From: a virus
DNA length: 60,178 nt
IMG/VR virus record: IMGVR_UViG_3300005264_000069
Coordinates: 1 to 60,178 of that record
Reading direction: 5' to 3' (one strand)
The stretch's first letter is position 1, and each line of letters begins with the position of its first letter. The position numbers and the translations under genes were made by a program. Shown here piece after piece: positions 71 through 60,178 of this stretch. The notes beneath the pieces were generated by a model. The model was given only the letters and a program-made list of their open reading frames with translations, searched no databases and had not been told where the DNA came from.

Positions 71-245
71 AAGGTTATTGTTACGAGTGCGACGAAGGTG
101 CTTGCGACAACTACGATTATGGCCCTTGCACTAACTGTGATGAAGGTCCTTGTACAAATGGTGACCAAGGTCACTGCGACAACTGCGACCAAACTGCGAC
201 AACTGCGACCAAGGTTACTGCTACAACTGCGATGAAGGAGAATGA
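1..245 (+). CDS. C-terminal end of the Cys-rich repeat tail protein (wraps from the right end of the window)
   Basis: This is the last part of the gene that starts at 56524 and runs off the right edge. Bases 1-70 repeat bases 60109-60178, so the two pieces join if the contig is circular. Frame 1 reads octapeptide units such as GYCYECDE, GPCTNCDE and GHCDNCDQ up to about base 190. There the frame breaks: compared with the preceding unit, about 4 bases seem to be missing between CAA and AC (190-194). One frame over, the repeats resume (CDNCDQ, GYCYNCDE) and end at TGA 243-245, which overlaps ATG 242-244 as ATGA. Read without a shift, the frame ends at 265-267 with a Thr/Ala-rich tail. The overlap and the resumed repeats suggest that 243-245 is the intended stop. 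The break may be an assembly error in repeats or a real slippage mutation. Confidence 0.75.
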
Positions 246-247
246 TG

Positions 248-1414
248 ATGCGATACAATCAGTTTGAGACAGCTTTATCCAACAGGTGCAATCTGGCCTG
301 CCCATGGTGCTACTCGGCGTGCAACGCGCAAGCCAAGTTTGACCAAGCACAAACACGCAAGAACCTTTCGTGGTTCTTGGCACAAGCCCCCCAAAGGCGC
401 ACACTGAAAAACGGACGGGAAACACCTGCACCACGGGTATCGTTCTTCGGCGGTGAACCCCTGCACGAGTGGGATGCCCTTGTTGAAACTGTAGAGTGGC
501 TACGCGAGCAGGTTCCAGATATTCGCATCGGTATCGTTAGCAACATGTCACTTCTTTCCAGCGAGAAGTTGGAGTGGCTTGCGGCGCACAAAGTCGCCAT
601 CAGCGCAAGCGTAGACGGGTGCCCCGAAGTGGTCAGCGCCCGTGTTGATAAGCATACTGGCAAATCACGGGAAGCGGATATCTACCGGGGCGCAAAAGTA
701 CTCCTCGCAAAGTATCCCCACAAGACATGCCGTGCAACGGTCAGTCCCGCCACGGTTGACCGGCTCACAGAGTCCGTGATCTACCTGCACGAAGAGGTCG
801 GATTTCAGACGGTGAACTGCGTGCTTGCAGGCGGTTGTGCTAATGATTGGATGCCGGTCATACCCGTGCTCGCGGAGCAGATTACGAAGCTCACGGACTG
901 GTGGATTGAGAAGATGCGTGCAGGTGTTTTCGTTGACCTTTTTCACCTGCGGAATCATATCACAAGTCTTTGGAAGCCAGGGAATCTGGTAGGACGGAAC
1001 TTGTGCAAAGCAGGGTGCCAGACAATCGCCTGCACCGTGGAAGGTGACCTGTACCCGTGCCATCGGTTCTGCAACCCCGATACCGACCCCGAATGGATGT
1101 TGGGGAACACCACCGACGGCATCACTAACAGGACGAAAGTCACAGAGCTGAAGACACATGATCAGCACAAATGGAAACTCTCCCGGCACGAATGTCAACA
1201 GTGTCCCGCGCTACTAACATGTCGCGCACGCTGCTCACATGAGTTGCAGGCTGCGGGTATGGGGCTGGAAGGTGTGCTACCTCACTACTGTGCTTCCGTG
1301 CGTGTATACGCAAGGGAAGCCCGGCGTGCACACGCTACTCTGATTGCAGAACGAAACAAGCTATATCGGGACACATATCGCCCGGGCTCCCGTGAGGGGA
1401 GGCGTACTGTGTAG
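248..1414 (+). CDS. Radical SAM/SPASM enzyme, candidate maturase of the neighbouring Cys-rich tail protein
   Basis: A 388-residue radical SAM protein. The CxxxCxxC cluster motif is C14, C18 and C21, and the SAM-binding GGEP motif is at 68-71. The C-terminal SPASM region is complete: C262 with GX4C ending at C271, then CX2CX5CX3C at 316, 319, 325 and 329, and a last Cys at 348 (further Cys at 253, 257 and 275). This implies two auxiliary Fe-S clusters. The YPCHRF stretch before the CX2C block is shared with sulfatase-maturase and peptide-modifying SPASM enzymes. Three ATGs occur at 242, 245 and 248. The GAAGGAG site at 234-240 fits 248 best (7-base spacing). ATG 242 overlaps the tail stop, so translation is probably coupled. 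Family knowledge: SPASM enzymes modify peptides and proteins, for example thioether formation by PapB or formylglycine formation by anSME. The tail-repeat substrate is inferred. I see no RRE domain and no small precursor gene. Confidence 0.9.
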   Translation: MRYNQFETALSNRCNLACPWCYSACNAQAKFDQAQTRKNLSWFLAQAPQRRTLKNGRETPAPRVSFFGGEPLHEWDALVETVEWLREQVPDIRIGIVSNMSLLSSEKLEWLAAHKVAISASVDGCPEVVSARVDKHTGKSREADIYRGAKVLLAKYPHKTCRATVSPATVDRLTESVIYLHEEVGFQTVNCVLAGGCANDWMPVIPVLAEQITKLTDWWIEKMRAGVFVDLFHLRNHITSLWKPGNLVGRNLCKAGCQTIACTVEGDLYPCHRFCNPDTDPEWMLGNTTDGITNRTKVTELKTHDQHKWKLSRHECQQCPALLTCRARCSHELQAAGMGLEGVLPHYCASVRVYAREARRAHATLIAERNKLYRDTYRPGSREGRRTV

Positions 1415-11047: not shown

Positions 11048-11716
11048 TTATCGTACCCAGACGCCGCCTGTGTCCCACCGACAGTTCACAAGGGCTGGTT
11101 CTGTTATTGGTGTGAAGCCGGCATCTCGTATGCCCGCCATGATTTTTTGCGCTTCGTTTTTCCAGTCACAACTTTTGACCGGATGAAACTCCAGAACGAT
11201 ACCTCGTAGTCCCTTGAGATTGCCCAGAATGTCGAAGCCCCACTCAGCACCTTCCACATCAATCTTCACGACGGTGGCGCCTTTGATGGCATCTTCGTAA
11301 CGAATTGCTGGGACTTCAATTGGTGACAACTTATGCCCTGTCTTGGCGATGCTATTGGCTACGCCGATTCCATAAGACACGTGAAGCTGTGCTGTCTGTC
11401 TATCATCACCAACAACTGCAGCATGCACCGCACGCATACAGCCTCGACAGTTACTCTGCAGGACTTCAAACGTACTTGGTGTTGCTTCGTATGCGACTAC
11501 TGAAGTAACGCCTTGACGAACACTCCAAATGGAATACTCTCCGATGTATGCCCCAATATCGACCACATGATCCTCAGGCTCAAGATCAAGTTTTCGACAT
11601 GTAGTGAGTGCGCCTGTGAACGCACTATTTGCATTCAAGTTTCGGATGGCATTGTAGTATCCGCAATGCTTCGTTCGCACTTCCTCAATTCTTGTTTTTA
11701 TCGGTTCTTTTAGCAT
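11048..11716 (-). CDS. FkbM-family SAM-dependent methyltransferase
   Basis: A 222-residue Rossmann methyltransferase. Motif I is VVDIGAYIGEYS near residue 51 and the later acidic motif VVKIDVEGAEWG near 150 is typical of FkbM enzymes, which methylate hydroxyl groups, often on sugars. It has no DNA-target domain like base methylases. It lies inside the replication operon, between the clamp loader and small zinc-ribbon genes. Because this phage also encodes two glycosyltransferases of the DNA-hypermodification type, sugar methylation on modified DNA is a possible role; that is inference. Confidence 0.8.
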   Translation of the reverse strand: MLKEPIKTRIEEVRTKHCGYYNAIRNLNANSAFTGALTTCRKLDLEPEDHVVDIGAYIGEYSIWSVRQGVTSVVAYEATPSTFEVLQSNCRGCMRAVHAAVVGDDRQTAQLHVSYGIGVANSIAKTGHKLSPIEVPAIRYEDAIKGATVVKIDVEGAEWGFDILGNLKGLRGIVLEFHPVKSCDWKNEAQKIMAGIRDAGFTPITEPALVNCRWDTGGVWVR

Positions 11717-12839: not shown

Positions 12840-13050
12840 CGTCATTTTCCTGTTGTTCAAGTAGATTCAGCGCCTTGACGATACGCCGCTTCATTTCGCG
12901 TGATACGCCGGTTGTATTGATGCGTTCATCATCACACATAATCATATAGAACGGACCACTGGTTGCTTCATGCTTTTTGCACTCCACCCGTTTCCCGGTC
13001 CATCCTTCCCGCGTGTAGTAGTTCTTGAGCCAGTACTTATTCCGTGCCAT
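12832..13050 (-). CDS. Small basic hypothetical protein
   Basis: 72 residues from MARNKYWLKN, seven bases after GGAG, overlapping the polymerase stop by 14 bases. It is basic and compact, with one CKKHEATSGPFYMIMC pair that might bind metal. Its start lies within the last codons of the polymerase gene, so the two are co-translated. No family recognised. Confidence 0.55.
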   Translation of the reverse strand: MARNKYWLKNYYTREGWTGKRVECKKHEATSGPFYMIMCDDERINTTGVSREMKRRIVKALNLLEQQENDDE

Positions 13051-14437
13051 TGTCATTCTCCAAGGGAGCCATCTCACTCCAATTTGTTGTTGACCAATCA
13101 GTTTCAACTTCAAGTGGTACTGAAAGCCAAGGCCATGCTGCTTGCAATTTTGTTGTCATTATTTCTTTAGCGAGTGCAACATATTTTGGCACGAGTTCAA
13201 TCGGCACATCGGCAAGTAACGCATCATGGATTTGTGCGATCAATAGCGCAGGCCATCCTCTGCGATTCAGTTCCTTTTGTAGTGTCACAAGTGACCAAAG
13301 TAAACAGTGAAATGCAGGCCCCTGCACGTGGTAGTTCAGTACCTGATTTTTTGACATGGGTCCCATACAACGAAAACCCGTTACAGTGTCGATGTAACCC
13401 TGCTGTGTGTAGAGTTCGACTTGTTTTTTGCGGAATGCTTTGTAGACTCTAAACCTTTCATTCCAAAAACGATCTTCCACACGCTTGATATGTGCCTCGA
13501 ATGTGCCCGACTTTGTATCTTCATTTGGGTCACATGCGCCGCGCACGAATATGTTCTGATTCGCCAAATGATCATAGATGCTTTGCCCGTCTTTCGTCTT
13601 GAGTTTCAGACGATCAATCGAGTCCCATAAAGCAATGGCGACTTGCTTGTACCAGTCACCATAAAATTCAGCGAAAACAAAACTATTCTTCGCGGCAAAC
13701 CGTATTTCTTTCGTTACTTCACTTTTGTCAAGTATGAAGATTTCTGAAGCCATATCACGGTGCATGTCACCGACTGTTGCATCATGCGTAAGTTTCGGAT
13801 CCCCAGACAGTGCGCAAGCGACCATCACTTCCATCGACGAATAGTCGATTTCCACAAGAGCGTGCCCTGGTCGTGGTATAAACGCACGCCGTATGATTTT
13901 CGCAATCATCGGGTCACGTTTGGGGATGTTCTGCAGATTCGGATCATCACTCTGCCCACGATAAGACCGCACGTGCGCAAGCCCAAAATGCGCATGTAGG
14001 TATTCCCCTTCGACTTCCCGCATCACCCCAGTCAAATAAGTACCATGGAGTTTGTTCAACTTTTCAAGACGTTGAAAGCCTCTTGTGTACTTCGTGCCGA
14101 CTCGTTCAAGTGCAGCTTCGTCAAGTTGTGGCTTGCCTGATTTTGTGTACGCAGTTGCTTCATTTTCCATGTCTTCAAAAAGCACAGCCGCAAGTTGCGC
14201 ACGACTACTTATGTTTACCTTTTGCCCGTAACGTTTGCGTTGCAGTTTGTATTCCTTGCAGTTACGCAAATTGGCTTCAAGAAGTTTGATGCGTGTCGCA
14301 ACTTTTGTGATCGTGGTAGTGAGATAATCAACATCAATACGAACACCGTTGGCTTCCATCTGCGACAAAGCCTGCACACCATGATGAAACAGTTTGTATC
14401 CGTCAAGTCGGTTCATCTTTTTGTGTTTACCTTCCAT
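13037..14437 (-). CDS. polA-like: Family A DNA polymerase, polymerase domain only
   Basis: About 466 residues covering palm, fingers and thumb. Motif A is LVEIDYSSMEV near residue 185, motif B has KNSFVFAEFYG near 240 and motif C is QIHDALLADVP near 410. ALSQMEANGVRID at the start is where the polymerase part begins in full-length Pol I. No proofreading motifs are present; they are in the separate gene at 15507-16628. The start is uncertain (14437 ATG, in-frame TTG at 14452, later ATG at 14416), since none has a strong ribosome site. A 13-codon frame ending TGATG overlaps the 14437 ATG and may couple translation. The arrangement is a split form of the SPO1-type UDG/exonuclease/polymerase protein. 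Confidence 0.9.
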   Translation of the reverse strand: MEGKHKKMNRLDGYKLFHHGVQALSQMEANGVRIDVDYLTTTITKVATRIKLLEANLRNCKEYKLQRKRYGQKVNISSRAQLAAVLFEDMENEATAYTKSGKPQLDEAALERVGTKYTRGFQRLEKLNKLHGTYLTGVMREVEGEYLHAHFGLAHVRSYRGQSDDPNLQNIPKRDPMIAKIIRRAFIPRPGHALVEIDYSSMEVMVACALSGDPKLTHDATVGDMHRDMASEIFILDKSEVTKEIRFAAKNSFVFAEFYGDWYKQVAIALWDSIDRLKLKTKDGQSIYDHLANQNIFVRGACDPNEDTKSGTFEAHIKRVEDRFWNERFRVYKAFRKKQVELYTQQGYIDTVTGFRCMGPMSKNQVLNYHVQGPAFHCLLWSLVTLQKELNRRGWPALLIAQIHDALLADVPIELVPKYVALAKEIMTTKLQAAWPWLSVPLEVETDWSTTNWSEMAPLENDNGTE

Positions 14438-14509
14438 CAAGCAAAGTTCCAATCCAGTTTCAATGTGAATGGGTGCATTTTACTTTCGTTTTGTCAACTG
14501 CAAAATGAT

Positions 14510-15506: not shown

Positions 15507-16628
15507 TTATGTATTCCAAGGACGAACAGCACCAAGTTCTTCGATCTGTGCACAGGCGACGCGAAACTCCTCAACAGAATCGAGTCCGTTGTAGAGTAGC
15601 AAGTCCATGAGATCAATTTCTTCGAAAATACGATTCAGTTTTCGACCCGGGGCTGATTTCAAAAATGGGGAAACTTTGTCATTCCATACAGCTGTCCCAA
15701 GTCTTACAAATGCTTGGAACTTTACTGACGTAATGCCTGGGCGATTGTCACAAACATGAGCAGCGATCATCGTATCCCACGCCCAATTCTTTACACCGTG
15801 TCCTAGCTTTGCGTGTGTCCAACGATCTTCGAACTTTAGGTTCGAGGCGATCTTCGGCAAGTCACTGCGAAGAAGCGCAGACATGGCAGGAATCACTTCA
15901 CCATGCCATGGAAATGCAATACAACGCTCAACGTTCGTACGCCCCCACGCCACACTACACGAAACGATCTTCGCTTCAGCAGCATCCGGCTTGAGACAGT
16001 TCGTTTCATAATCCCACGCAATCGCGCCAGACCGCTGCTGGCAGCATTTTCGTAGCCATCGTGCTGCTTTACCCACGTCAGGCTCACAATGTACAGCAGA
16101 ACGAGTTGTGGCGGGGCCCACATGCCCTGGGGCTTCTTCGTGGGCTATCGCAGCACGTAAATGAACTTTGAACTGACGATCCAGTACTGGGTTGCTCTCG
16201 CGCATGAGAGCAATAGGCGCCCACGTCGGGCAAACCCAGGCCCCAAGTTCGGTGCACGGTATCTGCCAGCCTGCCCACTTTTCGATCTCCCCTGTGTCTC
16301 GTTTCCACAGGGGCCCAATAACAGCACGTACAGCAGAAGATCCGAGTGGTATGATAACGTCAGGATTGAGAGTTCGGATTGCCTTCAGGAGATTAGGAGC
16401 GCAGGCTTTGATTTCTGGCACTTTGGGGCGTCGTGCTGCCGGTGTTTTACAGATAACAGCCCATGTTCCCCATGCGTCGGAGTCGAGATCAAATCCAAGA
16501 TTGCCCAGTGTTCTTCGTAAAAACTTCCCTGACTTGCTGGACCAGCCTCCGTTGCCTTCATCCTCACACGTGCTAGGTGTTTCAGAAACGAAAAGCACAC
16601 GACGTTTGCCAGTACCGATCACGGGCAT
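15507..16628 (-). CDS. UDG-like domain fused to the 3'-5' proofreading exonuclease (split from the polymerase)
   Basis: About 373 residues. Residues 10-190 resemble family 4 uracil-DNA glycosylases: VLFVSETPS replaces GEAPG, then GKFLRRTLGNLGF, AVICKTPAARRPKVPEI, PDVIIPLGSSA, and VCPTWAPIALMRE where HPS is expected, so the catalytic His is missing. The second part has DEDD exonuclease motifs: Exo I AIAWDYET, Exo II NLKFED, WDTMIAAH, and Exo III LLYNGLDS. SPO1-type phage polymerases carry UDG-like, exonuclease and polymerase parts in one chain; here the chain ends after Exo III and the polymerase lies 1.1 kb downstream. I place the start at ATG 16628. An ATG at 16772 would overlap the upstream gene by 118 bases but adds a possible CxxxH segment. 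Confidence 0.82.
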   Translation of the reverse strand: MPVIGTGKRRVLFVSETPSTCEDEGNGGWSSKSGKFLRRTLGNLGFDLDSDAWGTWAVICKTPAARRPKVPEIKACAPNLLKAIRTLNPDVIIPLGSSAVRAVIGPLWKRDTGEIEKWAGWQIPCTELGAWVCPTWAPIALMRESNPVLDRQFKVHLRAAIAHEEAPGHVGPATTRSAVHCEPDVGKAARWLRKCCQQRSGAIAWDYETNCLKPDAAEAKIVSCSVAWGRTNVERCIAFPWHGEVIPAMSALLRSDLPKIASNLKFEDRWTHAKLGHGVKNWAWDTMIAAHVCDNRPGITSVKFQAFVRLGTAVWNDKVSPFLKSAPGRKLNRIFEEIDLMDLLLYNGLDSVEEFRVACAQIEELGAVRPWNT

Positions 16629-16654
16629 CCTTTTGAGGTTATCGAGCCAGCTCC

Positions 16655-16975
16655 TTACCGAGCGATTATGTTCATCGCACTGCTTATGATTTCCTGTGAT
16701 ACACCTTGCGACATCAATGCTTCTGTGTATCGTTGCATGATCGTAGCTGATGTTTCTCGAATACTCATCCATTCTGCCTCAAGGTGACGATTCCATTTGT
16801 TCACCCAGTTGGTTGCCTGTCGACGATGCTGTGTGTCAGGTTTATGTGGGAACTCTTTTTCGATTCGCTTTCCAAAAAGGTTTACACATACGAGAGTACC
16901 GAGGCAGTTTGACGTTATAATCTCAGCATACATCGGATTGGCATCTGCTGAATCTTTTTGATTTTCTTCAGTCAT
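16655..16975 (-). CDS. Hypothetical protein
   Basis: 106 residues. The N-terminus is polar; the middle NPMYAEIITSNCLGTLVCVNLFG is moderately hydrophobic; the C-terminal 60 residues are helical (WVNKWNRHLEAEW, then SQEIISSAMNIIAR). It overlaps the clamp stop by 8 bases and precedes the UDG/exonuclease gene. Not recognised. Confidence 0.6.
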   Translation of the reverse strand: MTEENQKDSADANPMYAEIITSNCLGTLVCVNLFGKRIEKEFPHKPDTQHRRQATNWVNKWNRHLEAEWMSIRETSATIMQRYTEALMSQGVSQEIISSAMNIIAR

Positions 16976-17990
16976 TAGGCTCCGCCTCCCCCAGACAAGT
17001 TACAAATTCAAACTTGCCTCCATCGATCTTCAAACGATTTTCGTCGAGTAGACAATCGTTCGTTCGTGCGATGATGTCAATAAGCAGATCAGGGGCCATT
17101 GAGAATATGACTGGAGGCCCTGAATACTTTACGGATTTTTGTTCCTCGTACCAGCCTGACGCGCCCTTGCCACGCAGACTCAATTTGCCCGCTTTGATCT
17201 TCACGAGAACGACATTGTCATCGGCATTATCTTCAGAAAAAATTGCCGCCTTCTCACACGCTTCTGCGAGTCCGCCTGGAAGTGTCGTCGGGGTACCGTT
17301 GTCCATTATGAACAGTTCGGAAAGATCCTCATATTCATCAAACTCTCGCCGTGCACTGAGAACAAGACCAGTCGTCGGGTTTAGCCAATGCAACCAGTTC
17401 TTCGTGGCGCAGACTTTCGACATACCGAGCCCCGTTACATGTCGTAGCGAATCACGCTTCACCAGGCATGATTCAGACACGCCTGTGTGGACTGGGTACC
17501 TTGCGAGTTGATAGTTGTCACAAGCCTCCACATAATCTGGAGTGATATGGATGCAAGTGAGCGAGAACGTGTTCGGGTCCTTGCTGGCACAGTGCTGCAC
17601 TACACCTACTGCATCAGCGAATTCTGCGCCGGGTGCTTCCCATTCGTCAGGAATCTCCACTGCGTCAACAGGCAATGACACTTCTGATTCCATCGTGATC
17701 GTTGCGCGTTTACGTTTTCCTTTTACCACCAGTCCAGTGCCCTTGTCGTTGACAGAGATGTTCACGTCCTTCTCAGTCATTTTGGAAAGGAGTGCAAGTA
17801 ACGGTGCAGCGACCACCGCTCCTTCGAATCCAAGGTCACATGGGATCGAACACGCAACTTCATCATTGAATGTAAGCAGACGTTCATTTTTGAAGACGAG
17901 ACAACTGCTCTGTTCGATGGCTTCACGTACTGCGAGGCCGGGTGTTACTGCTTCCAGTTTTCTCAACAAATCTTCTCGATTCAACTTCAT
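16968..17990 (-). CDS. Sliding clamp (DnaN-like processivity factor)
   Basis: 340 residues from MKLNREDLLRKLEAVTPGL. The clamp-like pattern includes FNDEVACSIPCDLGFEGAVVAAPLLALLSK near residue 40, a middle domain with SLTCIHITPDYVEACDNYQLARYPV, and an end DENRLKIDGGKFEFVTCL. The overall fold reads as beta-clamp, although identity to DnaN is low. It would tether the split polymerase and be loaded by the AAA+ protein at 10118-11038. The frame extends upstream to 18128, but that stretch contains a terminator hairpin, so ATG 17990 is the real start. Confidence 0.8.
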   Translation of the reverse strand: MKLNREDLLRKLEAVTPGLAVREAIEQSSCLVFKNERLLTFNDEVACSIPCDLGFEGAVVAAPLLALLSKMTEKDVNISVNDKGTGLVVKGKRKRATITMESEVSLPVDAVEIPDEWEAPGAEFADAVGVVQHCASKDPNTFSLTCIHITPDYVEACDNYQLARYPVHTGVSESCLVKRDSLRHVTGLGMSKVCATKNWLHWLNPTTGLVLSARREFDEYEDLSELFIMDNGTPTTLPGGLAEACEKAAIFSEDNADDNVVLVKIKAGKLSLRGKGASGWYEEQKSVKYSGPPVIFSMAPDLLIDIIARTNDCLLDENRLKIDGGKFEFVTCLGEAEPND

Positions 17991-18046
17991 TATGCTACTC
18001 CTGTGTTTGAGGTCTGTTGTAGTATCGTCCCAAGTTACACATTGGC

Positions 18047-18097
18047 GAAAAAAAAATAACCGGTAGGACAGCGTGGGAGCACTGTACCTACCGGTTG
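18047..18097 (-). terminator. Strong intrinsic terminator upstream of the sliding clamp gene
   Basis: AACCGGTAGG and CCTACCGGTT form a long stem (with ACAG/CTGT inside), and on the minus strand the hairpin is followed by ATTTTTTTTC. A second hairpin (TGCTGGCT/AGCCAGCA, about 18096-18123) lies just before it. Together they end the transcript of the gene at 18132-18800. Confidence 0.88.
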
Positions 18098-18131
18098 CTG
18101 GCTCACGGGGGGAAAAGCCAGCATGCACGTG

Positions 18132-21933: not shown

Positions 21934-22815
21934 TCATTCCAAGAATCGTTCGCGTAGTTCTGCGATTTCTGCTGGATCAGCGTCACTTGCATCCTTGCCT
22001 GTCTCAAGCGTTACATTCAACGTGGTGCCGGGAAAGACTGAGAGCGCATCCGCAAGCACGCGTGCTCTCACTTGCGCGTTAGGTTCTGCGTCATAGCACA
22101 CTACTCGAACGGGGTAGCGACTCATCGCAAGAAGCTGCTTCTCCGTGTACGCAATTCCACATGTTGCAACAGCACCAGGTCCAGTCGCCCATACATCAAG
22201 TGGTCCTTCGTGAATGATGATCGAATGCTCTGCGTAATCCGCGCCATAGAGGATCTCCTTGTGGCGGATCTTCTCGTCACTTATCGCGGCGCTCATATAG
22301 CGTCGGGAATCGTTTGGTCTGATGCTACGTGTTGTCCATGAAACGATCTGGCCATGGTGGTGTATTGGGATGAAGATCCGCCAGCGCATATGCCGCTCTC
22401 GGGCATCATTACCGATTCCCTGTATACCCCACCATGCTTCGGTTTGCGCTACGTTATAGCCTCGGGCTACTAGATACGCACGATGCCCCGGTAAAAGCTC
22501 ACCACGACCGTCTGGGAGCTTCAGGCGGCCCACCACACGTTCAGGAGCGCGCACAAGCACGGCATCATCAAGGATCTGTCGGATCTGGAACGCGCTTTGA
22601 TCGCAGGCGAGTGAGAGCATCTTGGCGGTATTTTGTCGTCCACACTGCCAACACGCACATGCTCCCGTTGAGATGCTGATCCCCATGTGGAATCTTTCCG
22701 TGCCCTCTCCACATAGAGGGCAGTCCAGTTGCACCCAGCCTATTCGTCCGTGTCTGTGTTCTGCCCCGACACAGGGGATGTCCAGGTTCTGTAGGACCTC
22801 TCTAATATCTGCCAT
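21934..22815 (-). CDS. DnaG-type primase (zinc finger plus Toprim)
   Basis: 293 residues. The zinc-binding domain has CPLC near residue 32 and CWQC near 55. A linker leads to the catalytic core with WRIFIPIHHHGQIVSWTTRS, then the Toprim motif IIIHEGPLDVWATG near 205 and VVCYDAEPNA near 245 (the D-x-D equivalent is reduced to D-A-E). This is the order seen in phage and bacterial primases. There is no helicase domain; the helicase is separate at 18896-20290. It overlaps no neighbour but is 3 bases from the glycosyltransferase stop, so it is in the same operon. Confidence 0.88.
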   Translation of the reverse strand: MADIREVLQNLDIPCVGAEHRHGRIGWVQLDCPLCGEGTERFHMGISISTGACACWQCGRQNTAKMLSLACDQSAFQIRQILDDAVLVRAPERVVGRLKLPDGRGELLPGHRAYLVARGYNVAQTEAWWGIQGIGNDARERHMRWRIFIPIHHHGQIVSWTTRSIRPNDSRRYMSAAISDEKIRHKEILYGADYAEHSIIIHEGPLDVWATGPGAVATCGIAYTEKQLLAMSRYPVRVVCYDAEPNAQVRARVLADALSVFPGTTLNVTLETGKDASDADPAEIAELRERFLE

Positions 22816-22818
22816 CAG

Positions 22819-23967
22819 TTACCCTTCTTCAGCTGATGTTTTCTCGTTCTTATTGATGAGGAACATGCCATACTCATTCGGTTCATTCGTGGGCACGACA
22901 TCATCATGTAGAATCGGTGTATTGTGTTTGAATGGCGCGTAGTTCACTTGATGATGCCAACGATGATACTTCCACACAACTTTTACAACATCAGGGTGCT
23001 GCTTCGCAAGCGATTCGGCAAATGCAAGGCGATGATCCCCACCAGCGTAAACAGTGTCCGTGTTCCCACCTTTCATGCTGAGTCCATTTTGCCCGCCCGC
23101 GGTCTGCCCTTTACTCATAAGCAGAGTGCGAAAGAGGCACGTGCTGTATCCCTTCTTCAGTAGCCGCAGCGAAAGATCCGTGTCCTCATTGTAACGCCCG
23201 CGCCACCGATCAGGGAGGGACGTATCAAGCAGAATGCAACTGTAGATGCGGGAGTTCCATGTCAGTGGTGCTCTCCCTGGATTCTCACGGTCGTGAACGA
23301 ACTTCATATCGTGTGGGCCTGCCATCACAAGATTCTTGTAGCGATCAACGAAATCTTCCATTGCACGGAACAACATTCCTGTTCTGACTAACGTCCGAGC
23401 GTTGTTCATACTACGTGCAAATGACTTGATGTTGTCATCTACAGTCCAGTGTCGTTTGCACTCACGCTCCAAAGCCCATTCCCAAATGAAGTTCCGCGCC
23501 GGGATCGAGCCTTGCCCAAGATCATGGAAAGGCATCACGATCACTCTATCTTCGCCAAATGCTTCACAGTACGCATCACCCTCTGTCTCCTCTACGAAAT
23601 AATGGTAGTCTACACCCATCTGGTCGAGAACACGTCCCGTGGTCGCGTTTGTGGCGCGTCCTTTGCTCGGAATGCAAATCGGGTAATGGCTACTGACTTT
23701 TGGTCCATTGTATCGCCAGCCAATTCGGTAGGGCTGATGCGGATACCAGAATGTCTTCAGTTTGGTTTTTACTGGCAGTTCGATGCATTCCAAAAACTGT
23801 TTTTTGTCAGCTAGTGTCGCGAAGTTCACAACAGTAGTGAAGCGTGGGCGCATATCAGTTTCTTCCAGCACAGGCATGCCCCACCAGTATTTGTGCCAGT
23901 CGGGCTTCACGTTGAAAAAGCCTTGGCGCTTCTTCTTACGAGTAGGTCTTGCAGGGAGCTTGGTCAC
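22819..23967 (-). CDS. TET-associated-type glycosyltransferase (TAGT-like), copy 1
   Basis: 382 residues. The N-terminal 100 hold a WWGMP module with a TKLKTFWYP end, found beside phage DNA-modification proteins. The main part has YPICIPSKGRATNATTGRVL, YFVEETEGDAY, the metal-site-like HWTVDDNI and RWRGRYNEDTDLSLRLLKKG, which is the pattern of TET-associated glycosyltransferases that add sugars to hydroxymethylated bases. Family assignment is by memory of these motifs. It is about 60-65 % identical by eye to the next gene and shares exact DNA blocks with it. No TET dioxygenase or hydroxymethylase is visible in the window. Confidence 0.72.
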   Translation of the reverse strand: MTKLPARPTRKKKRQGFFNVKPDWHKYWWGMPVLEETDMRPRFTTVVNFATLADKKQFLECIELPVKTKLKTFWYPHQPYRIGWRYNGPKVSSHYPICIPSKGRATNATTGRVLDQMGVDYHYFVEETEGDAYCEAFGEDRVIVMPFHDLGQGSIPARNFIWEWALERECKRHWTVDDNIKSFARSMNNARTLVRTGMLFRAMEDFVDRYKNLVMAGPHDMKFVHDRENPGRAPLTWNSRIYSCILLDTSLPDRWRGRYNEDTDLSLRLLKKGYSTCLFRTLLMSKGQTAGGQNGLSMKGGNTDTVYAGGDHRLAFAESLAKQHPDVVKVVWKYHRWHHQVNYAPFKHNTPILHDDVVPTNEPNEYGMFLINKNEKTSAEEG

Positions 23968-23979
23968 AATATGTTTCTC

Positions 23980-25128
23980 CTACTCTTTTTCCTGATGTGT
24001 GAGGAACATGCCATAGTCGTTCGGTTCACCTGTCGGTGTGATATCATCACGCAGAATCGGTGTGTTTCGCTCGAAAGGTTTATAGTTTACCTGATGATGC
24101 CATCGGGAGTACTTCCACACGACTTTTACAACATCAGGGTGCTGTCTTGCAAGCGACTCAGCGAATGCTTTGCGATGATCGTCGCCTGCGTAAACAGTGT
24201 CCGTGTTTCCACCTTTCATACTCTGTCCATTTTGCCCGCCCGCAGTAACCGCTTTGCTCATAAGCAGGGCACGGAAGAGTGCTATGCAGTGGCCCTTCTT
24301 CAGTAGCCGCAGCGAAAGATCTGTGTCCTCATTGTAACGCCCGCGCCAGCGGGTTGCCAGCTGCGTGTCCAGAAGAATACAGGAATACACACGAGTATTC
24401 CAGATCACGGGCCGCAGTGAGCCCGTTTGATCGAAAATAAACTTGCGATCGTGGGGGCCTGCCATTGCCACATTTTCGTATCTGTCAGTGAAGTCTTCCA
24501 TTGCAGTGAAGAGTGATGATGTTTTTACCTGCACGCGTGCGTTGTTCGTGAGACGTGCGAAGTGCATGATGTTGTCATCTACAGTCCAGTGTCGTTTGCA
24601 CTCACGCTCCAAAGCCCATTCCCAAATGAAGTTCCGCGCCGGGATCGAGCCCCGTCCTTTGTCGTGGAAAGGCATTACAACGACATGTTTCTCGCCAAAT
24701 GCTTCGCAATAGTCGTCACCCTCTGTCTCCTCTACAAAGAAACGGTAATTGTGTATTCCCATCTGTTCAAGAACACGTCCCGTGGTCGCGTTTGTGGCGC
24801 GTCCTTTGCTCGGAATGCAAATCGGGTACCGTGTGCTTTCCTTTGGACCATCCCACACGTAGCCTGTCGACTTCGGACGATTCGGGTACCATACGGCTTT
24901 AGTCTTCGTGGTGACAGAGAGTCCCGTCGCTTTCGCAAAAGCATCGACGTCTTCGTGTGTCATCAAATTGATTGTTATTGAATGACGCGGCGTCGCGTTG
25001 CCTTGCTCGAATGAGGGCATGCCCCACCAGTACTTCCGAAAGTCGGGTTTGGCAACAAAAAAGCCTGCGCGCTTTTTACGCACTGGGCGGTCCGGTCCTT
25101 CAGTTACTCTCACTGTTTTCTTACCCAT
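23980..25128 (-). CDS. TET-associated-type glycosyltransferase (TAGT-like), copy 2
   Basis: 382 residues, the same length and layout as copy 1: WWGMP module, TKTKAVWYP, YPICIPSKGRATNATTGRVL, HWTVDDNI and RYNEDTDLSLRLLKKG. Differences cluster in the N-terminal domain and around residues 200-240, so substrate or sugar choice may differ. It is the first of the pair, behind linker copy 25129-25189 with its GGAGG site. Two divergent full-length copies suggest two sugar additions, or sequential addition. The modification itself is inferred. Confidence 0.72.
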   Translation of the reverse strand: MGKKTVRVTEGPDRPVRKKRAGFFVAKPDFRKYWWGMPSFEQGNATPRHSITINLMTHEDVDAFAKATGLSVTTKTKAVWYPNRPKSTGYVWDGPKESTRYPICIPSKGRATNATTGRVLEQMGIHNYRFFVEETEGDDYCEAFGEKHVVVMPFHDKGRGSIPARNFIWEWALERECKRHWTVDDNIMHFARLTNNARVQVKTSSLFTAMEDFTDRYENVAMAGPHDRKFIFDQTGSLRPVIWNTRVYSCILLDTQLATRWRGRYNEDTDLSLRLLKKGHCIALFRALLMSKAVTAGGQNGQSMKGGNTDTVYAGDDHRKAFAESLARQHPDVVKVVWKYSRWHHQVNYKPFERNTPILRDDITPTGEPNDYGMFLTHQEKE

Positions 25129-56523: not shown

Positions 56524-59500
56524 ATGGATCTTTTTGGTTTTACTTCCAAATCGGATATCGCGCAAGTCGTGGCTGCTACAAAAGTTGTGCAGCGCATGGG
56601 CTTGTCGCTCGGCGGTCCTTCGTCCATGAAATATCGCCGACGATTACCGGGCGCGCCTGTGTCGATTATCAATGATGAAGCTACTGCTGTCCCAGGGGAA
56701 GGTGCGTTGCTTGAAGTCACAAGCTACACATCTGAAGAGTTGATTTGGCACGTGGAAAAACCAACAGCAACAGGCGTGCCGGTTCTGCTTGCGCTTGCTG
56801 AAATTGAAACAGAGGAAGAGGGTTGTGGTGTTGCTCCTTTTGGAGACTGTCATGTCGCTGTTGATACGTCTAGTTTGACTGCAGGGGATCGTGTTGGACC
56901 ACAAGCTGGTGAATGGTATGCAGCAGCGGACAGTTCCGGTGCGTTTGTCTACATGGGTGAGCACCCTGTGCAGCCGGATTGGGTAACAGATGATATCAAG
57001 CTCTGCAAGTGCCTTTTCACAGGATCAGGGACCGATGGAGGAGGTGGTGGTGGCTCGACTGGTGACGGTGAGTGCTGGGTACGGAAAGAGCGCATCGACG
57101 TCACCACTACAACCCAGACAATCCTTTTCGAAGGTCTGAACGGAGATAGTGACCAGCATTACAAGATTCTCTCTCGGATTATCAGCGCATCAGCTACGGC
57201 ATCGACCTACAATGTTGCCGTGAACCTTGTACGACCTGCATCACTGAGTCTAGGCGCAAACTTCGCGGGTGTGGGTCACTATACCTTGTCCGAGGCTACT
57301 CTTCAAGCTGAGACTGGTGCTCATCGTGTTCTCGACAGCTTCTACACAAAATCAGGCACGTCCGCTACACGTACCACATCCATCTGGGCAGACAGCTCAA
57401 CGAACATCACTGCACTAGAGGTCGTTGCTAACACTACTGACGGCATCGGTGAAGGTTCGTACATCGAGCTGTGGGTGCTTGGCGCAGTGAGCGGCGGCGG
57501 CGGTGGAACTGTTGCCCCAGACCCGGTTGATGAGTTTGGCGACGATGCAACTGCCGCTGATACAAGCAACGGGCACAGCGGACACATCCCCGGTGGCGGC
57601 GGCTACATGCCGGACGGAACGGTTGAAGCTAAAGACACATTTGACAAGCCCTGGGACTCAGGTCTTTCAAGCAACTGGATCACCGGCAGTGCTGATGCAA
57701 ATAGCAACTTCAAGCACACCGGGGCGGGGTTCATTCGCGCACGGCGTTCACCAAGTGCCGTGTGGAATACGTCGATGTCGAAGGCCGACCAGTGGATTGA
57801 GATTCGGGACTACGGAGCATACGACAACGGCAATGGGTGCCACAATACATTCTGGTTACGTATGGCCACCAGCTCGGCTGCTTGCGTTGACGGAAGTACC
57901 TACGGTTACTTCACTGTGTTCTCGCAGGCCGGCTACTATATCAAGGTCGCTAACAACTCCGCGAGCATCTGGAAATACGATGGGACATCACATGAGGCAA
58001 TCGGTACGTCGATATCCGTTGCAGGTGCCCGTCGCATGGATATATTCTTCGGGGTTATTGGCAATACACTGACATTGCAGTTGCGGTGCTGCGGCGCAAC
58101 ACCTGACGATGATGGGAGCCGCGCTGAAACTACTTACACCGACACGACTAGCCCGATCACCACAGGCGGTTTTGTGGGGATGACAAGCTACACATCCGGG
58201 GGCGTTATTGGGGAAGACCATTGGGGGAACTTCCTTGCTGGAACTGATAAAGGCCCTATGTGTTGGCGCTCGGATGGCTTCGCGGCTGATGCCGTTGACA
58301 ATGGCGGGGTGCAGGTGCTGGACCCGACTTACTGGACAACGGGCGGCTCTGCACCGCTTGAAGTTGACGCTAATGGGCGTGTGCATGTGTACCCGTGGCC
58401 CGGCGACAGAAACGGTATCGCTATTGACAAGACAGCGCACGGGCCGAACCACTGGATTGCATTGTACGGCCTCCGTCGGTCAAGTTTGGATGATACCATA
58501 CTGACGATGTGGGTACGCCTGCAATCCGATGAGATAGTGACGACAAGCGAGGGGACACTCGGCGCTGAACAGAGCACCTCCAACAAGTTTGTCGGCTACC
58601 GGTTGCGCATGGCCTGGAATCGGAAGGAAGACAGTGGCTCATACCCGGATCACTACGCGATGGTCGAGATAACGCGGCACTATTACGATCAGGTGGAGTT
58701 GATTCTCTCAGACAGAATGCTTGTGGGTTCGTCTAGTGGTGGCGATGACGACGAGTTGGCGGGATGGCACTCGCTATTCTTCGGCGCGTTCGGAAACCGC
58801 CTCTGCGTACGTGCGATGAATATCAGTCGGTGGAGCGGTATCACAGTTGAGACGCACGACGCACTAATACCAGTAGGCAACCACGTTGGATTCGAACTGC
58901 GCACGCTGAGTGACGGTGGCGCAACTATCAGTGCTGAAAATGTTGACATGGGCACAGAAGCGACAGTGCCAACATGCTTCCGGCGTGACACGAGAAATGT
59001 TTGGACACCACGGTGGTCGAACGTGGAAGAATCGGGCACGCTTGCTGTGACGTATGACGTGGGCGACGTGTCTGTGCCAGATGGCGATACCACACCGACC
59101 GTAGCCGAGGGCACAGACTTCGGCAGAACAACTGCCGGTAGTGCGGATATATCCCACTCATTCACGATGACAGCTACAACTAACCCAGTGGGCGTCCGTG
59201 ATGCAAAGCTGCTGAACGAAACTGCGTTTAGCATCAGTGCTCAGGCGACCAATCCAATCAATATGAGCGACCAGTTCGAGGTGACTCTGGATACTGCGGT
59301 AGCCGGAACATACACCGACACGGTCACAATCCCAAATAGCACAACGGATGGATCGTACACCTTTGATGTCATAGGTGTCATTGGCGATCCGCCTTGTATT
59401 AGCTGTGATGAAGGTCAATGCTCAATCTGTGATGAAGGTGCTTGTAGTGTCTGCGATGAAGGCGTTTGTAGCGACGCAGATGAAGGTCCTTGTAGTGTCT

Positions 59501-60178
59501 GTGATGAAGGTGAGTGTGACAACGGCGACCAGGGTGCTTGCACTAGTTGTGACCAAGGTGCTTGCAATTACTGCGATGAAGGTGCTTGTGATACTTGCGA
59601 CGAGGTTTCGCCTTGCAATTACTGCGATCAGGGTGCTTGCACAAACTGTGACGAAGGTGCTTGCACTAACTGTGATGAAGGTGCTTGTTCCGCCTGCGAT
59701 GAGGGTTGGTGTGGTACCTGCGATGAAGGCATCTGTGACTCCGACGACGTCGGTCCTTGTACAAATTACGATGCCGGCCCTTGTACAAACGGTGACCAAG
59801 GCTACTGCGGTAACTGCGATGGTTATTGTTACGAGTGCGACGAAGGTGCTTGTTATAGCTGCGATGACGGCATCTGTGCCTCTGATGACGTCGGCCCTTG
59901 TACAAATGGCGACCAAGGTAATTGTACAAATGGCGACCAAGGCTACTGCGATAACTGCGACGAAGGTGCTTGTTCCTCCTACGATGAAGGTGCTTGCACA
60001 AACTGTGACGAAGGTGCTTGCACTAACTGTGATGAAGGCTACTGCGGTAACTGCGACGAGGGTTGGTGCGGTAACTGCGATGAAGGCATCTGTGACTCCG
60101 ACGACGTCGGTCCTTGTACAAATTACGATGCCGGCCCTTGTACAAACGGTGACCAAGGCTACTGCGGTAACTGCGATG
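56524..60178 (+). CDS. Giant tail-tip/spike protein with C-terminal Cys-x3-Asp octapeptide repeats (continues at base 1)
   Basis: The open frame runs from ATG 56524 without a stop to the window end and continues at bases 1-245, about 1,275 residues in all. Residues 1-180 are an N-terminal tail part ending at a Gly linker. Beta-rich domains follow (about 180-320 and 350-830) with another Gly-rich linker near 325. Residues about 830-950 look like a choice-of-anchor/HYDIN Ig domain (DFG at the start, then TAFSISAQATNP, AGTYTDTVTIPNS). From residue 959 to the end are 8-residue repeats G-x-C-x-x-z-D-x; all 33 units I read before the window end keep Cys and Asp (C-x3-D), and 21 also have Cys at z. 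The overlapping radical SAM gene is the likely modifier. Confidence 0.88.
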   Translation, partial: MDLFGFTSKSDIAQVVAATKVVQRMGLSLGGPSSMKYRRRLPGAPVSIINDEATAVPGEGALLEVTSYTSEELIWHVEKPTATGVPVLLALAEIETEEEGCGVAPFGDCHVAVDTSSLTAGDRVGPQAGEWYAAADSSGAFVYMGEHPVQPDWVTDDIKLCKCLFTGSGTDGGGGGGSTGDGECWVRKERIDVTTTTQTILFEGLNGDSDQHYKILSRIISASATASTYNVAVNLVRPASLSLGANFAGVGHYTLSEATLQAETGAHRVLDSFYTKSGTSATRTTSIWADSSTNITALEVVANTTDGIGEGSYIELWVLGAVSGGGGGTVAPDPVDEFGDDATAADTSNGHSGHIPGGGGYMPDGTVEAKDTFDKPWDSGLSSNWITGSADANSNFKHTGAGFIRARRSPSAVWNTSMSKADQWIEIRDYGAYDNGNGCHNTFWLRMATSSAACVDGSTYGYFTVFSQAGYYIKVANNSASIWKYDGTSHEAIGTSISVAGARRMDIFFGVIGNTLTLQLRCCGATPDDDGSRAETTYTDTTSPITTGGFVGMTSYTSGGVIGEDHWGNFLAGTDKGPMCWRSDGFAADAVDNGGVQVLDPTYWTTGGSAPLEVDANGRVHVYPWPGDRNGIAIDKTAHGPNHWIALYGLRRSSLDDTILTMWVRLQSDEIVTTSEGTLGAEQSTSNKFVGYRLRMAWNRKEDSGSYPDHYAMVEITRHYYDQVELILSDRMLVGSSSGGDDDELAGWHSLFFGAFGNRLCVRAMNISRWSGITVETHDALIPVGNHVGFELRTLSDGGATISAENVDMGTEATVPTCFRRDTRNVWTPRWSNVEESGTLAVTYDVGDVSVPDGDTTPTVAEGTDFGRTTAGSADISHSFTMTATTNPVGVRDAKLLNETAFSISAQATNPINMSDQFEVTLDTAVAGTYTDTVTIPNSTTDGSYTFDVIGVIGDPPCISCDEGQCSICDEGACSVCDEGVCSDADEGPCSVCDEGECDNGDQGACTSCDQGACNYCDEGACDTCDEVSPCNYCDQGACTNCDEGACTNCDEGACSACDEGWCGTCDEGICDSDDVGPCTNYDAGPCTNGDQGYCGNCDGYCYECDEGACYSCDDGICASDDVGPCTNGDQGNCTNGDQGYCDNCDEGACSSYDEGACTNCDEGACTNCDEGYCGNCDEGWCGNCDEGICDSDDVGPCTNYDAGPCTNGDQGYCGNCD
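59395..60178 (+). repeat. 24-base tandem repeats coding for Cys-x3-Asp octapeptides
   Basis: About 33 units of 24 bases (8 codons) with two length irregularities (a 9-residue unit VSPCNYCDQ near 59605 and a 7-residue unit near 59821). A block of about 100 bases (59718-59820) recurs exactly 357 bases later at the window end, and its last 70 bases recur at bases 1-70. Contig closure in such repeats may have changed the unit number. Confidence 0.9.

Follow-up and report, generated by a model that had tools for sequence, protein, structure and literature searches.

A tandem pair of TET-associated-type glycosyltransferases in a phage genome without a recognised acceptor-making gene

The phage genome analysed here (IMG/VR record IMGVR_UViG_3300005264_000069; 60,178 nucleotides, hereafter the window) carries two adjacent genes of the TAGT glycosyltransferase family, and in this genome and in dozens of relatives the acceptor of these enzymes is not made by a TET dioxygenase, a dCMP/dUMP hydroxymethylase or the T4 alpha-glucosyltransferase. 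Orphan TAGTs, which occur without T4-type glycosyltransferases, are already known and were noted in 2026 (PMC13216743). The best reading of our results is sparse, post-replicative DNA glycosylation on an acceptor that arises by no known route. Spelled out, the explanation to which we assign a probability of roughly 55% is that the pair, as UDP-sugar-dependent GT-A enzymes, would take a UDP-sugar (UDP-xylose in some relatives, a host-made donor in the window phage) and transfer the sugar to DNA of the phage itself, either while it is being replicated or shortly afterwards, and probably at a restricted number of sites. The WWGMP module, in relatives also a ParB-like domain or polymerase partner, would act as the targeting or coupling part, and an FkbM methyltransferase would then O-methylate the sugar. 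A 70-bp terminal direct repeat (1-70 and 60109-60178) indicates a circular or complete assembly and supports an earlier note on this DNA, made from the sequence alone, which had called the genome complete.

Both TAGT genes lie on the minus strand. TAGT-A (23980..25128) is the first gene of the replication operon and has an ATG start with a GGAGG on its 5' side; TAGT-B (22819..23967), its tandem paralogue, starts with GTG and is separated from it by 12 bp. As the earlier note had described, both open reading frames, which are complete, encode 382 residues and contain WWGMP (as YWWGMP), VDDNI (as TVDDNI) and RGRYNEDTDLSLRLLKKG. With 137.7 (TAGT-A) and 125.5 bits (TAGT-B) against PF20691, more than four times the curated cut-off of 27.5 bits, they are confirmed as genuine members of this family; the profile places their catalytic cores at 24244..24828 and 23101..23685 (both minus strand). 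The pair also matches phrog_842 (beta-glucosyl-HMC-alpha-glucosyltransferase) at 1e-37 and 7e-39. An AlphaFold2 model of TAGT-A, built on a 44-row alignment, shows a GT-A fold (mean pLDDT 86.1, pTM 0.87) whose nearest neighbours, BcsA and GalNAc-T2 among them, are UDP-sugar-dependent GT-A enzymes (Z about 14; 210-230 residues superposed with an rmsd of about 4 A). The residues D184-D185 and E267-D268 of TAGT-A, invariant among 33 relatives and intact in both window copies, are expected to be the donor/metal and catalytic acids.

TAGT-A and TAGT-B are 69% identical and form sisters with a support of 99 in a tree with 170 relatives, and the pair represents a lineage-specific duplication. Relatives with genes of the thymidylate-synthase/hydroxymethylase (TS/HMase) family exist and the window has no acceptor gene, which would suit the idea that the two genes are inactive passengers from an ancestor with hydroxymethylated DNA. 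However, the divergence between the copies (dN 0.25, dS 1.09, dN/dS about 0.23) implies purifying selection on both, their catalytic residues are preserved, independent duplications recur elsewhere (three tandem copies in L050; pairs in L057, L061 and Kuja) and the genes occur hundreds of times, so that we consider inactive passengers very improbable.

The profiles PF00303 (thymidylate synthase and dCMP/dUMP hydroxymethylases) and PF12851 (TET/JBP) remained without a match in the window when the E-value limit was relaxed to 0.1, in agreement with the earlier statement that the genome holds neither a TET nor a thymidylate-synthase homologue. PF00145 (C5 methylase) is likewise absent from the window, as is PF11440 (T4 alpha-glucosyltransferase), which was also absent from the orphan relatives and was found in T6. 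Among the window's 25 best Pfam families (62 proteins, down to E 3e-5) there is no dioxygenase, thymidylate synthase, nucleotide kinase or beta-glucosyltransferase (PF09198); the absence of a nucleotide kinase, also proposed before, holds to that depth and is less firm below it. PF00303 and PF12851 were equally missing from 44 IMG/VR records with close TAGT relatives (19 to 334 kb, some of them near-identical or fragments) and from the cultured Vibrio phages 1.076.O and 1.124.O; one sub-threshold 35-residue piece of PF12851 among the relatives was treated as noise. As positive controls, PF00303 was detected in Aeh1, phiAS5, 65, POP12, Kuja, PTm1 and henriette, where a match cannot separate a hydroxymethylase from an ordinary thymidylate synthase, and PF12851 in P12024L.

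These seven PF00303 carriers are cultured relatives of the same clade and count against our preferred explanation, as a hydroxymethylated acceptor may be ancestral or alternative. Together with the T6 TAGT, whose chemistry starts from a hydroxymethylated base, the TET-TAGT-methyltransferase operon of P12024L and the many window proteins without an informative match in the scanned libraries, they favour a conventional hydroxylated or hydroxymethylated acceptor, with a maker that is unrecognised by profiles and either differs from phage to phage or comes from the host. A handle could also be made by the mutually related radical SAM enzymes that lie within 0.8 kb of the TAGT in three unrelated loci (L060:7828-9093, L070:7989-8954, L176:11093-12073) and are a possible base- or sugar-modifying partner. 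Against this stand the eight bacterial (lysogen) genomes that hold an orphan TAGT: none has a TET and each has at most one PF00303 gene, which rules out a host TET or hydroxymethylase as the general source and leaves the earlier suggestion of a host-supplied acceptor, by a known route, without support. With C5 methylases in just 6 of 35 orphan genomes and none in the window, 5-methylcytosine is excluded as a general precursor. One conserved but unrecognised phage gene, as also considered in the earlier note, fares no better, since the TAGT cassette is the sole family common to 13 of 14 compared, unrelated orphan genomes and the runners-up, all core phage genes, reach six or fewer; this comparison used phmmer clustering, which very divergent partners could escape, and two of the genomes are represented by one stretch each. 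The fourteenth genome (G038) dropped out of the count through a length filter, as its TAGT sits in a 1210-residue fusion. On this evidence we rate a conventional acceptor as unlikely and keep to DNA glycosylation on an acceptor that none of the known routes provides.

Two candidates within the window were also rejected. A search for a hidden dioxygenase by the HxD...H motif returned scattered, chance-like matches only. The radical SAM/SPASM protein at 242-1414 (plus strand) is assigned by NCBIfam to the SPASM peptide maturases and shows no detectable kinship to the TAGT-adjacent radical SAM genes; its nearest families are PapB (ranthipeptide) and the QHNDH maturases (4e-34 and 6e-34, below the equivalog cut-offs), which cross-link cysteine to aspartate or glutamate. 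It follows the gene of a tail-region protein (56524-60178, continuing to 267, plus strand), the last about 330 residues of which consist of Cys/Asp/Glu-rich repeats with 62 cysteines and 18 CDEG motifs. Judged by its composition and this neighbour, the Cys-rich structural protein might undergo thioether stapling as a RiPP-like substrate.

DNA is probably the substrate of the TAGT pair, as the earlier note had assumed, and the indications come mainly from relatives. The strongest of them is a 1210-residue protein (L119:4184-7816) that joins WWGMP, TAGT and DNA polymerase A (PF00476, 1.7e-22). The same architecture is found again in a distinct contig (L219:5001-8645; 59% identity over the full length), so that an assembly artefact is unlikely; TET and TS/HMase genes are missing from both phages. 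In the window, the DNA primase gene (21934..22815, minus strand; phrog_47, 1.8e-26) starts 3 bp after TAGT-B and is followed by genes for a replication initiator, a DnaB-like helicase, a sliding-clamp-like protein (16968..18128, minus strand; weak PF02768), a UDG-exonuclease, polymerase A, the FkbM methyltransferase, a clamp loader and RecA-like proteins. In the nearest relatives (L053, L051, L119, L049, L050, L067) a clamp-family gene adjoins the TAGT, which recalls the replisome coupling proposed for the T4 alpha-glucosyltransferase (PMC13216743). Searches of viral contigs with the window primase and FkbM proteins as queries found no relatives. As a separate observation, the window protein at 15507-16772 (minus strand) fuses a family-4-like UDG domain to a 3'-5' exonuclease, polymerase A is encoded apart from it at 13037-14452 (minus strand), and the two genes look like a split polymerase with a UDG domain.

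GT-A enzymes are versatile, and protein O-glycosyltransferases are among the Foldseek neighbours of the TAGT-A model. In Vibrio phage 1.076.O the orphan cassette lies among structural genes, between the portal and head genes, and a terminase gene is near the TAGT in 26 loci; such placements of some orphan cassettes count against our explanation. The gene order of 1.076.O, the versatility of the fold and the persistence of restriction-site avoidance (see below) would be compatible with a virion protein, tRNA or surface glycan as acceptor. We nevertheless regard a non-DNA acceptor as improbable in view of the polymerase A fusion in two phages, the ParB-like fusions, the position of the window pair in the replication operon and the T6 precedent (PMC13216743).

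The WWGMP module covers about residues 28-98 of TAGT-A (24835..25047, minus strand; from the alignments of relatives) and residues 18-88 of TAGT-B (23704..23916, minus strand; HMM match), and no Pfam family covers it. The earlier note had named it alongside the glycosyltransferase core; it is indeed present in both proteins, but it does not belong to the TAGT domain, as it stands alone or is fused to ParB in relatives. Among 172 occurrences, about 52 are fused to a TAGT, 76 are stand-alone reading frames of at most 150 codons and 44 form the C-terminal end of a longer, mostly ParB-like protein. Where the WWGMP gene is separate, it is a small upstream reading frame that usually ends no more than a few tens of bases from the TAGT start. 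In the phage collection searched, WWGMP is confined to TAGT phages, and it nearly always accompanies the TAGT clade to which the window pair belongs. The ParB part of the fusions matches Noc, ParB and Spo0J CTPase domains (E about 1e-13) as well as Pfam ParB_N, and in L055 a ParB-like part (assigned by eye), WWGMP and TAGT share one reading frame. In a model of a ParB-WWGMP protein (pLDDT 90) the ParB part is clear, whereas WWGMP appears as one helix with no sheet assigned. WWGMP is a domain of its own, about 70 residues long and hitherto undescribed, outside the TAGT domain.

Genome-wide protection of the T-even type is expected to leave little restriction-site avoidance. In the 60,108 bp of the window, TTAA does not occur once (61 expected from a Markov model, about 230 from base composition), and its other palindromes are reduced mildly only. 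A 4-bp palindrome falls below 0.3 of expectation in 11 of 20 orphan genomes, compared to none of seven strabovirus, Kuja and henriette genomes, a difference that is confounded by host and genome size. The avoided palindrome often contains cytosine: G043 (L125) has 0 GATC (208 expected) and 6 GGCC (179 expected), G022 (L053) has 0 AGCT (261 expected) and G029 (L072) has 0 CCGG (24 expected), and CTAG in L069/G026 and GTAC in L067/G025 are absent or nearly so. Avoidance was also seen in spite of presumed DNA modification genes, namely in the TET phage P12024L (L247-L248; 0 GGCC, 32 expected) and in PTm1 (L253-L256; 1 GATC, 193 expected); the PF00303 gene of PTm1 could encode a normal thymidylate synthase. 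This indirect evidence suggests that, unlike T4-like modification, orphan TAGTs leave some sites unprotected; their modification may be sparse or sequence-specific, of recent origin, or absent. As to the earlier view that such enzymes sugar-coat DNA, glycosylation remains likely, and the marked avoidance seen in many orphan genomes speaks against coating of the T4 kind across the entire genome. Palindrome avoidance would also fit DNA that carries no modification, which counts against our explanation.

The FkbM-family methyltransferase at 11048..11716 (minus strand), named as such in the earlier note, is borne out by PF05050 (33.6 bits; cut-off 22.7) and TIGR01444 (56.9 bits; cut-off 37.7; 3e-15). 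Its proposed role in capping the sugar is reasonable in the light of relatives: FkbM homologues occur in just 4 of 158 non-redundant TAGT loci, in three of these beside the TAGT (abutting it in L058 and L119, 0.55 kb off in L050), and always co-oriented. In the window the gene lies 11.1 kb from the TAGT pair on the same strand, a distance that counts against our explanation. From the adjacency in relatives, we consider it somewhat probable that FkbM O-methylates the TAGT-added sugar. In three loci a different methyltransferase abuts the TAGT. An NAD enzyme is encoded within 0.75 kb of the TAGT in seven of the nine loci that have one; that of L051 best matches human UXS1 (PDB 2b69, E 2.8e-122; the next different enzyme reaches 3e-38) and is thereby identified as a UDP-glucuronate decarboxylase, which would let such phages provide UDP-xylose. 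By eye, PAPS-reductase-like genes were seen within a few kb of the TAGT (L195:8298-9023, L202:7206-8129, L051:6745-7197).

The cassette is mobile, moves without companion genes and has turned up in many unrelated phages and hosts across phyla. For this reason the single likeliest acceptor would be a canonical base, which any DNA contains, and not a modified base made for the purpose; this choice is tentative, and we rate it slightly above any single modified base. That WWGMP-TAGT is a self-sufficient system, which glycosylates a canonical base directly (for example at an exocyclic amine), is aimed by a ParB-like or polymerase partner and may optionally have its sugar tailored by FkbM or a UDP-xylose synthase, is a more doubtful proposition. 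If true, it would amount to enzymatic glycosylation of unmodified DNA, of which we know no description; to our knowledge, every route characterised so far by which phage DNA acquires sugars begins with a hydroxyl group being installed on the base as a handle. TAGT relatives were found on at least about 600 IMG/VR contigs, and for so widespread a cassette, present in phages as well as in prophages of cultured bacteria, to recur without a recognised handle-making gene points to either a new acceptor chemistry or sugar transfer straight to DNA. Concrete ideas on the targeting of the modification come from the polymerase A fusion and the ParB-like partner, and several carriers of orphan TAGTs are in culture. 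The absence of acceptor genes, the WWGMP cassette and the polymerase fusion appear to be new. The accessible part of PMC13216743 touches neither on loss of hydroxymethylase or TET nor on a WWGMP/ParB module, fusions to polymerase or genes that tailor sugars next to the TAGT, and in the openly available literature we did not find systematic TET/hydroxymethylase absence, the WWGMP/ParB module, the polymerase fusion or the UXS/FkbM neighbours.

Compared to known systems, the Aeromonas phages Aeh1, phiAS5 and 65 (Straboviridae) share the two-part WWGMP-TAGT architecture of the window pair at 37-40% identity and likewise have no alpha-glucosyltransferase, but unlike the window they carry a TS/HMase-family gene. 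Association with TET gave the TAGT family its name, and in Nonlabens phage P12024L a PF20691 enzyme lies, in the operon described above, beside a methyltransferase, a likeness to the window; it differs in its adjacent TET/JBP dioxygenase, its identity of 24% and its lack of WWGMP, and the TET/JBP gene that marks TET-coupled TAGTs is absent from the window, together with C5 methylase.

In T6, a dCMP-hydroxymethylase-like gene that we take, by eye, to be gp42 stands next to the TAGT gene. T6 has both a gp42-like gene and an alpha-glucosyltransferase (PF11440), whereas the window lacks these two hallmarks of T-even glucosylation, and the T6 TAGT is far from the window pair in sequence (39 bits on PF20691; no WWGMP seen). 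It resembles the pair in its Pfam family, its GT-A fold and its link to phage DNA glycosylation (PMC13216743). As the only characterised member of the family, it is a DNA glucosyltransferase that adds a second glucose to alpha-glucosyl-hmC (PMC13216743, PMC13390438); the earlier idea that TAGT-type enzymes act on hydroxymethylated bases has to be amended in that the T6 substrate is an already glucosylated hmC and the enzyme does not transfer the first sugar to hmC. In Shewanella phage Thanatos and in the RB69 type of cytosine pentosylation, the UDP-pentose supply is encoded by the phage, comparable to the UDP-xylose synthase beside the TAGT in seven relatives; Thanatos differs in having a TS/HMase-type gene and other candidate transferases (PMC12838424). 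In PMC13216743, 288 of 753 phage genomes have a TAGT without an alpha- or beta-glucosyltransferase and new transferases are suggested; the window phage is a member of this orphan class.
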